DNA from: Actinacidiphila acidipaludis
GTDB taxonomy: Bacteria > Actinomycetota > Actinomycetes > Streptomycetales > Streptomycetaceae
NCBI RefSeq assembly: GCF_019890725.1
Contig: NZ_JAINZZ010000010.1
Span: 62,001 to 126,000, forward strand
Direction: 5' to 3'
DNA length: 64,000 bases
Shown here: piece after piece, positions 45,783 to 47,646 of the stretch
Position numbering within the stretch: the first letter of the stretch is position 1
How the letters are laid out: the number at the start of each line of letters is the position of its first letter
The notes under the pieces: generated by a model
Told to the model about the DNA's origin: nothing
Database searches by the model: none
Seen by the model: only the letters and a program-made list of their open reading frames with translations
Made by a program: the position numbers and the translations under genes

Positions 45783-45792
45783 GCGCAACCCT

Positions 45793-45965
45793 TCGTCGTC
45801 AGCCTGCGAAGGATGACCTGTCGGGTTCGAGCAGGCGAAGATGCTCGGCCGCTGTGCTGCGGCTTCACCCCAAGAGGCGGTCCGGTGGAGGCCGGGTTCC
45901 GCCCCGTCGTGCTGGGTCCTCCGCTCCTGCCGCGTGCACTCGTGTCGACCTGGCGTCCGCGCGGC
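45793..45965 (-). ncRNA. ydaO-yuaA (cyclic di-AMP) riboswitch
   Basis: Reading on the minus strand, the conserved blocks appear in order. CGGCAGGAGCGGAGGACCCA is at 45932-45913, CTTGGGGTGAAGCC at 45874-45861, and GAACCCGACAGGTCA at 45828-45814, followed by a CGCAGGC block just before the GAAGG ribosome-binding site. These are the hallmark segments of the c-di-AMP riboswitch class found before actinobacterial cell-wall hydrolase genes. Ligand binding normally lowers expression, here of the NlpC/P60 hydrolase. The exact 5' boundary is approximate. Confidence 0.85.
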
Positions 45966-46332: not shown

Positions 46333-46650
46333 TCAGTGGGGCGGTGGTTCCTTCGCGTCGGACACCACCGTGACCAGGGTGGACCGGCGTTCACCGTCCA
46401 GGACGCGCAGCGCCCGCGCCAGCGTGGCCTGGTGAAGTTCCGTCTCGCCGCGCATGTGCATGGTGGTGAGCGCGTCCTTCAGGGCCGTGGCCCGTCCGAC
46501 CAGCGCCTGAGCCGCCCGCAGCGCACGGTAAGTGTCCGTCGTGCGGGAGGGGTTGATCTTGCCCAGGAGGTCGACGACCTCCAGGTAGCAGTCGACGACC
46601 TCGCCTTCGGAGCGGGTGAGGGCGGGCAGCGGGGGCAGTTCGGGCACCAC
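46333..46650 (-). CDS. Small hypothetical protein downstream of clpP5
   Basis: 105 aa from GTG (alternative GTG 3 nt later), weak ribosome-binding site. It is a mainly helical acidic protein: RSEGEVVDCYLEVVDLLGKINPSRTTDTYRALRAAQALVGRATALKDALTTM as two long amphipathic helices, then ETELHQATLARALRVLDGER. No family recognised. It begins 7 nt after the clpP5 stop codon and is surely co-transcribed, so a role as ClpP5 partner or adaptor can be considered, though nothing in the sequence proves it. Confidence 0.65.
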   Translation of the reverse strand: MVPELPPLPALTRSEGEVVDCYLEVVDLLGKINPSRTTDTYRALRAAQALVGRATALKDALTTMHMRGETELHQATLARALRVLDGERRSTLVTVVSDAKEPPPH

Positions 46651-46656
46651 CGGGGA

Positions 46657-47292
46657 TCACCGCAGGCCGGAGGAGGCGCCGTTGGTCTTCCGACTGGTCG
46701 TCAGACGGTCCACCAGGCCGTACGCGAGCGCCGATTCCGCGTCGAACACCTTGTCGCGTTCGATGTCGGTACGGATGCGGTCCGCGTCCTGGCCGGTGTG
46801 CCGGATCAGCAGCGTCTCCAACTGCTCACGCGTGCGGAGCAGTTCGTTGGCCTGGATCTCCAAGTCGGACACGTCGCCCTGGATGGCCTCGCTCATCGAC
46901 GGCTGGTGGATCAGGATCCGCGCACCCGGGGTGATCATCCGCTTGCCCGGGTGGCCGGCGGCCAGCAGGACCGCGGCGGCCGACGCGGCCTGGCCGATGC
47001 AGACCGTCGCCACGTCGCAGGTGACGAACTGCATCGTGTCGTAGATCGCGGTCATGGCCGAGAAGGAGCCGCCCGGCGAGTTGATGTACAGGTGGACGTC
47101 CTGCTCGGGCGCGGCGCTCTCCAGGTGGATGAGCTGCGCCATCACGTCGTTGGCCGACGTGTCGTCGATCTGGGTGCCGAGGAAGACGATCCGCTCCTGC
47201 AGCAGCTTGGAGTACGGATCCATCGTGCGGACGCCGTTGCTGCTGCGCTCGGTGAACTCCGGCAGGACGTAGCGGGCGGTGGGTCGGAACAT
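46657..47292 (-). CDS. clpP5: ATP-dependent Clp protease proteolytic subunit (ClpP5 type)
   Basis: 211 aa. Catalytic Ser104 in [16 protein letters not shown], His129 in [10 protein letters not shown] and Asp180 in [10 protein letters not shown] are all present. [19 protein letters not shown] precedes them. An N-terminal propeptide-like segment of about 25 residues is seen. Streptomycetes have several clpP genes; this solitary one beside a Phd-type gene fits the clpP5 locus of S. coelicolor as I remember it. A GGAGGTG ribosome-binding site precedes the ATG. The Gln in GQAAS replaces the usual Met of GMAAS. Confidence 0.9.
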
Positions 47293-47318
47293 CGCGGTGC
47301 ACCTCCGTCTGAACAAAA

Positions 47319-47352
47319 TGTACAGGACGTACGTCCCGTTATGATGGGGAGC
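47319..47352 (+). promoter_or_regulatory. Palindromic promoter of the Phd antitoxin gene
   Basis: -10 TATGAT (47340-47345) lies 7 nt before the ATG at 47353. The perfect 12-bp palindrome GGACGTACGTCC (47325-47336) fills the spacer, with TGTACA (47319-47324) as a possible -35. Leaderless start and Phd/YefM autorepression are the likely reading. The divergent clpP5 promoter must share this region. Confidence 0.6.
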
Positions 47353-47646
47353 ATGACCCACGACGTCCCGGTGACACAAGCGCGTGCACAGCTCGCGGAC
47401 CTCATCAACCGCGTCGTCTACGGCGGTGAACAGGTGGTGCTGACCCGCCATGGCAAGCCGCTGGTCGCCCTGGTCTCCGCCGCTGACCTGCAACGACTGC
47501 GGGATCTTGAAGCGGCGGAGGACGAGCAGGTGATCAGCACGGTCTCGTCCGTCGGCGGCCGGGCGTCCGCCACGGGCGAACGCCGGACGTTCGGAATCGC
47601 CGCGGAGCACCGCGGATCCGCGACCGGGGACCGGCCGTCCTCCTAG
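47353..47646 (+). CDS. Phd/YefM-family antitoxin without adjacent toxin
   Basis: 97 aa. The N-terminal Phd domain reads [49 protein letters not shown], a good match to the family. The C-terminal tail is disordered ([23 protein letters not shown]). No RelE/YoeB/Doc toxin gene follows; the next gene is a convergent LysR regulator. The antitoxin is divergent from clpP5, and antitoxins of this type are typical Clp substrates. The function may thus be regulatory rather than part of a toxin pair. Confidence 0.85.

Follow-up and report, generated by a model that had tools for sequence, protein, structure and literature searches.

An antitoxin gene that faces the gene of a protease subunit, with no toxin recognised at its side, raises the question of what the antitoxin controls and which neighbouring product the arrangement serves. 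Such a locus is found in Actinacidiphila acidipaludis (genome size 8.48 Mb), on a stretch of 64,000 nucleotides of contig NZ_JAINZZ010000010.1 called the window here. A phd gene, whose neighbours in the window are clpP5 and a LysR gene, is divergent from the closely spaced genes clpP5 and hp105 (Table 1). The name clpP5 is the label of an earlier, sequence-only reading of this DNA and makes no statement of identity with S. lividans clpP5. No paper describing a phd-clpP5-hp105 module was recognised among the open-licence PMC papers listed, the listings being capped.

Table 1. Features of the phd-clpP5-hp105 locus in window coordinates, with the truncated clpP5 frames of other loci.
Feature	Position	Strand	Description
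hp105	46333..46650	-	ORF, GTG start; 105-aa protein, predicted three helices
clpP5	46657..47292	-	ClpP2-type proteolytic subunit; Pfam CLP_protease E=1.7e-70, also NCBIfam
phd	47353..47646	+	Phd/YefM family; Pfam PF02604 E=1.1e-12, NCBIfam TIGR01552
Operator candidate TGTACAGGACGTACG	47319..47333	no strand	GTAC-N5-GTAC, centres 9 bp apart
Palindrome GGACGTACGTCC	47325..47336	no strand	Overlaps the operator candidate; itself not conserved
c-di-AMP (ydaO) riboswitch match	45786..45948	-	E=2.2e-6; 5' side of the NlpC/P60 gene
NlpC/P60 gene	45285..46001		ORF
clpP5 stubs			Open frames of 52 codons (L038), 102 (L046, genome G052), 53 (L096, G040) and 81 (L160, G603)

The phd product scored 48 bits against PF02604, above the curated cut-off of 29.8, and so carries the Phd/YefM antitoxin domain. 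The host genome has three ClpP genes at E<=0.001, the other two being an adjacent pair on another contig. On the tree the window ClpP5 clustered with Actinacidiphila (Streptomycetaceae) sequences, and its best solved relatives in the PDB were chains named ClpP subunit 2; subunit-2 chains were also among the 11 best matches of the host ClpP gene nearest to it (64%). The stop codon of clpP5 and the GTG of hp105 are 6 nt apart in the window, so that the close coupling of the two genes seen in the sequence-only reading holds but the 7 nt given for it does not. The gap was 5-8 nt in 101 of 106 loci, a count that pools two genome sets that may overlap, which argues that the coupling is not due to chance. 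Host duplicates (L001-L003, L005) and short copies (L058, L093) were left out of the triad, operator, dN/dS and spacing tables; L002 is a second Phd locus of the host, and L004 supplied two host ClpP rows.

A scan with hp105 as query gave 37 named loci, of which 35 hold the complete trio, the exceptions being L035 without a full phd and L038 without a full clpP5. The three genes thus form a conserved unit, as had been proposed, and their frequent separation in relatives, which the sequence-only reading had set against itself, is mostly not what these loci display. Among 150 Streptomycetaceae genomes hp105 was detected in 74 and phd in 74, with both in 72 and a single one in 4 (lists compared by eye; one hp105-positive genome, G060, has a 37-residue remnant only). 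In the 247 genomes of genus g9, hp105 was found in 202 and phd in 196, with both in 194, hp105 alone in 8 and phd alone in 2 (cut-offs 1e-20 and 1e-25, lists compared by eye). In two genomes (L121, L122) phd and clpP are present and hp105 is missing. Outside the family, L126 has the full trio and GTAC-N5-GTAC, with Ser, His and Asp in place by eye, and L127 a partial hp105. Three genomes of another actinobacterial family, f15 (L123-L125), carry hp105 with neither phd nor clpP5 in 8-kb stretches, so hp105 does not always need Phd as its regulator; there it sits, by eye, between ORFs resembling a LysR regulator and an acetyltransferase.

The surroundings of the trio were also compared. In every listed row (L006-L122) phd is followed on its own strand by ureA, at gaps of about 80 to 2500 bp, and relatives of the NlpC/P60 gene come after the operon in all 37 named loci. 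In the window, no ureA stands beside phd, the ureA of the host genome being on contig C120, and the NlpC/P60 gene has a riboswitch match on its 5' side (Table 1). Ten ureA stretches were inspected, nine of which came from trio-less genomes; of these nine, four (L134, L135, L139, L140) passed from ureA to nlpC with no tblastn trace of the trio, and neither nlpC nor the trio was seen in the other five. This pattern is consistent with the three genes having been gained or lost together. Two large linear plasmids of Streptomyces and two contigs from a viral collection carry hp105, with clpP and an NlpC/C40 gene adjoining it on three of the four (L144, L145, L147; the fourth, H1/L146, is unannotated), and no copy was found in phage records; the case for a mobile module is weak.

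The candidate for a regulatory site lies between phd and clpP5. We found GTAC-N5-GTAC in 73 of 77 sampled loci (78 spacing entries, L118 and L119 being one locus), and each other spacing from 0 to 15 in at most 6. It was absent from L112, L113, L114 and L117, and in the last three of these phd or hp105 is missing, truncated or degraded. In most loci tabulated, 17-19 bp separate the site from the start codon of phd, and the intergenic region bears YGTACRTCCTGTACATTTT, little altered in most rows. The shared palindrome named in the sequence-only reading, GGACGTACGTCC, does exist in the window, but the conserved element is the GTAC-N5-GTAC of the 73 loci, which in the window reads TGTACAGGACGTACG; among the rows listed, a perfect GGACGTACGTCC was seen only in the host (L045) and three relatives (L006, L008, L047). 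No sigma-70-like promoter was found in 47200-47420.

The fuller form GTACNTCCTGTACA has one exact copy in the host genome and 98 exact matches in the 150 genomes, about 67 of them at the module locus as judged from coordinates. A wider Phd regulon is not supported: exact sites outside the locus (about 31 of the 98, by eye) were near background, with 23 matches of a reversed control pattern. Seven outside sites in six stretches were looked at: those in L128 (two), L131 and L132 read GGTACGTCCTGTACAAG and were taken as coding, two more are in L129 and L130, and that in L133 lies beside a clpP5 fragment. The last is a second, partial copy of the locus in G134 (L133, 3677-3930), where a perfect TGTAC-N5-GTACA is followed by a fragment matching positions 1-55 of the clpP5 model.

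Ten genomes in which phd is 6-347 kb away from the operon or on another contig (G082, G072, G540, G528, G476, G573, G536, G430, G624, G443) bear on what Phd acts upon. Both phd and clpP5-hp105 are retained despite the separation, and the site was found upstream of clpP5 in 10/10 and beside the unlinked phd in 0/9 stretches checked, so that phd persists there with no adjoining site. As the site does not follow an unlinked phd but remains at clpP5-hp105, Phd most likely represses the operon, also in trans. These cases, some of which may share an insertion ancestry and which do not count as ten independent events, are the best indication from sequence that Phd acts for the operon, with self-control secondary. 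The autoregulation suggested earlier is favoured by the Phd-type operator candidate between phd and clpP5 but not by the absence of the site beside unlinked phd; self-control by Phd is plausible where the site adjoins its gene. As a separate observation, the phd/operator junction borders inserts or rearrangements of 6-347 kb (L118/L119, L120, L148-L165) and is possibly an insertion hot spot.

Our main reading, to which we assign a probability of roughly 0.6, is exaptation of a Phd/YefM antitoxin into a local repressor dedicated to clpP5-hp105, with hp105 as the most conserved output and ClpP5 decaying outside the window's genus. Phd would bind the double-GTAC site between phd and clpP5 and repress the operon, together with its own gene where adjacent. 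Translation of hp105, the presumed main effector of the module, would be coupled to the point where the preceding clpP5 frame ends.

The absence of a toxin, as stated in the sequence-only reading, agrees with the neighbourhood of phd: none was recognised among the best-shared ORFs within 2.5 kb downstream of it (25 listed, common to up to 65/75 loci), which belong to the urease region. An adjacent cognate toxin, as in Phd/Doc and YefM/YoeB type II systems, is thus not recognised here, while a toxin of an undescribed kind may be present. In the alignments the Phd C-terminus has a conserved RFGIAAEHR-like motif, a form of which persists where clpP5 (L038, L116) or hp105 (L121, L122) is missing; this argues against either as its sole partner.

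We examined the catalytic residues of ClpP5 over the 77 loci and found the Ser-His-Asp triad intact in 40 and degenerate in 31, with clpP5 absent or fragmentary in 6. The triad is intact in the window (S104, H129, D180) and in 32 of the 33 loci of its genus; outside the genus (44 loci) the corresponding numbers are 8 intact, 30 degenerate and 6 absent or fragmentary. One of these 8 is L115, a second phd-clpP-hp105 locus of G103, whose ClpP groups with the ClpP2-type housekeeping gene. On the tree, changes between intact and degenerate number at least 7, of which 3 are forced by well-supported branches (triad columns kept, 38 open branches, two genome sets possibly overlapping). Of the catalytic residues, His is kept in 7% of degenerate rows, Asp in 42% and Ser in 73%, whereas the 98 columns that are conserved among intact rows are kept there in 84% on average; the degenerate set is defined by its altered triad, so the low triad retention is partly by construction, and the pooled rows may overlap. 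In each of the two sets, the same 39 columns are retained by 95% or more of the rows, and the median dN/dS of degenerate clpP5 in three groups, 0.23-0.46, still indicates purifying selection. Under such constraint these proteins look like pseudoenzymes rather than products of plain pseudogenes. As ClpP2 docks the ATPases in Streptomyces and ClpP1 cuts (PMC9765437), a ClpP2-type subunit could afford the loss of its triad.

In four loci, which may not be independent events, clpP5 is shortened to a stub (Table 1). Each stub still has an SD-like sequence and a start codon, and its stop lies 7 nt ahead of where hp105 starts; phd and the operator candidate are kept in all four. In L116, the start of clpP5 is apparently fused in frame to a diverged hp105. 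Rearrangements in L035 and L168 took the site and the 5' end of clpP5 and left hp105 whole; of phd, L035 retains just the 3' part, and none was found in L168. Outside the window's genus ClpP5 is most likely optional.

Selection on hp105 was estimated in four groups, with a median dN/dS of 0.09-0.24 that identifies it as a real gene. In the three groups with inactive ClpP5 the values were 0.09-0.14 for hp105, 0.23-0.46 for clpP5 and 0.16-0.42 for phd (one group's phd value includes the truncated phd of L035); phd is above clpP5 in one of the three and less constrained than hp105. Whole in stub and rearranged loci and with these low values, hp105 is, from its sequence record, the most consistently kept part of the module. 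In the window's genus, clpP5 (0.239) and hp105 (0.235) are under equal constraint, and with the triad intact in nearly all its loci ClpP5 may matter equally there. The hp105 protein gave no match above threshold in Pfam, NCBIfam, PHROG or PDB. Neither of two low-confidence three-helix AlphaFold models (mean pLDDT 65.8 and 70.7) matched a PDB structure at E<=0.001, and for the second there was no viral match either. A weak PriC match was rejected at E=0.22 for the window protein and 0.047 for the best of 21, both under the Pfam cut-off, as was a metal site at the conserved H65 and H73, H65 being replaced, by eye, in relatives from other families.

Three explanations compete with exaptation of Phd as a local repressor. 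In the proteolytic switch of the sequence-only reading, Phd is the repressor of the operon and the target of a Clp protease containing ClpP5, whose removal of Phd closes a feedback loop. It could still operate in the window, where the triad is intact and the clpP5-hp105 operon faces phd, and PMC4989188 describes the antitoxin RelB2 as lost faster on co-expression with ClpX and single S. cattleya ClpPs, whose numbering may differ from that used here. As a general mechanism it fails, and we consider it improbable altogether: in 37 of 77 loci the triad is lost or clpP5 is missing or a fragment, phd and the site outlast clpP5 in every stub locus, and a C-terminal -AA, which according to a review (PMC9775585) is the ending for degradation by Streptomyces ClpP1/ClpP2, was found in 0/111 Phd proteins (pooled genome sets that may overlap, -AA being the only degron examined). 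A divergent two-gene toxin-antitoxin pair of Phd and hp105, with hp105 as toxin and ClpP5 as passenger, would explain why both genes occur in 72 of the 76 genomes having either and why hp105 is kept when clpP5 is lost, and the conserved Phd C-terminal motif could bind such a partner. Yet hp105 matches no toxin family, its chromosomal neighbours are mostly fixed (ureA and nlpC), and each gene occurs without the other, hp105 without phd in 8/247 genus g9 genomes at the cut-offs used and without a nearby phd in G195, G271 and G326, and phd without hp105 in G011 and G074; we regard such a pair as quite unlikely.

The third explanation makes ClpP5 central, as a ClpP2-type docking ring, often non-catalytic (ClpR-like), that alters the Clp-ATPase coupling of ClpP1, with hp105 as an assembly or adaptor partner. 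ClpP5 is closest to ClpP2-type subunits, and according to PMC9765437 the ATPases of Streptomyces dock on ClpP2, which can do without its catalytic Ser. Degenerate clpP5 remains under constraint, the 39 columns are shared by both sets, and 51 of 55 degenerate rows retain Tyr69, presumed by eye to be a docking residue. However, a second presumed docking aromatic, F or Y at position 89 in 52/52 intact rows, is present in only 30 of the 55 degenerate ones, clpP5 is stubbed while hp105 stays, and the three f15 genomes have hp105 with no clpP5 nearby, and we hold this explanation to be unlikely.

With Phd as local repressor of clpP5-hp105, ClpP5 would be a ClpP2-type subunit that is intact in the window's genus, likely a pseudoprotease elsewhere and in places a short leader ORF. 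A bolder version, which we put forward only tentatively and think rather unlikely, is that a ClpP gene was repeatedly converted in one family from active protease to pseudoprotease to leader ORF, and kept only for the Phd-repressed, translationally coupled hp105 as the real effector of a toxin-less module.

Several known systems resemble parts of this locus. With yefM-yoeB and axe-txe it shares the Phd/YefM domain and paired GTAC-centred palindromes just upstream of the antitoxin gene: YefM/Axe operators are described as two palindromes with a TGTACA core, spaced 12 bp apart (PMC7730913), and a Streptomyces yefM operator is also described (PMC3303803). Here, by contrast, no toxin is recognised, a clpP operon lies behind the site, the centres are 9 and not 12 bp apart, and the regulator is sometimes unlinked. 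PopR and ClgR are likewise dedicated transcription factors for a clpP operon in Streptomyces, according to part of PMC9765437, but they are described as activators that bind other motifs and are degraded by ClpP1P2 (PMC9775585), whereas a putative Phd-family repressor without -AA is found here. Plastid ClpR subunits, in an excerpt of PMC6508832, also belong to the ClpP family and lack a complete catalytic triad; compared by sequence only, the loss seen here differs in being patchy, repeated within one bacterial family and sometimes carried on to truncation. The S. lividans clpP5 is, as here, a solitary clpP apart from clpP1P2 and clpP3P4, and the same partial source calls it monocistronic (PMC9765437), unlike the present gene with its closely following second gene; again, this does not imply that the two are the same gene.

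Seen in its sequences, the locus is a conserved Phd module in which no toxin is recognised, with a candidate operator of unusual geometry and an eroding ClpP. It gives a little-understood Streptomyces ClpP a partner gene and a candidate mechanism of control, and it suggests that an antitoxin-family protein can be retained as a trans-acting operon regulator with no toxin recognised. At one locus, ClpP subunits form a natural series from intact through triad-less to truncated, and hp105, conserved but without family or fold assignment in the libraries searched, is a gene worth testing.
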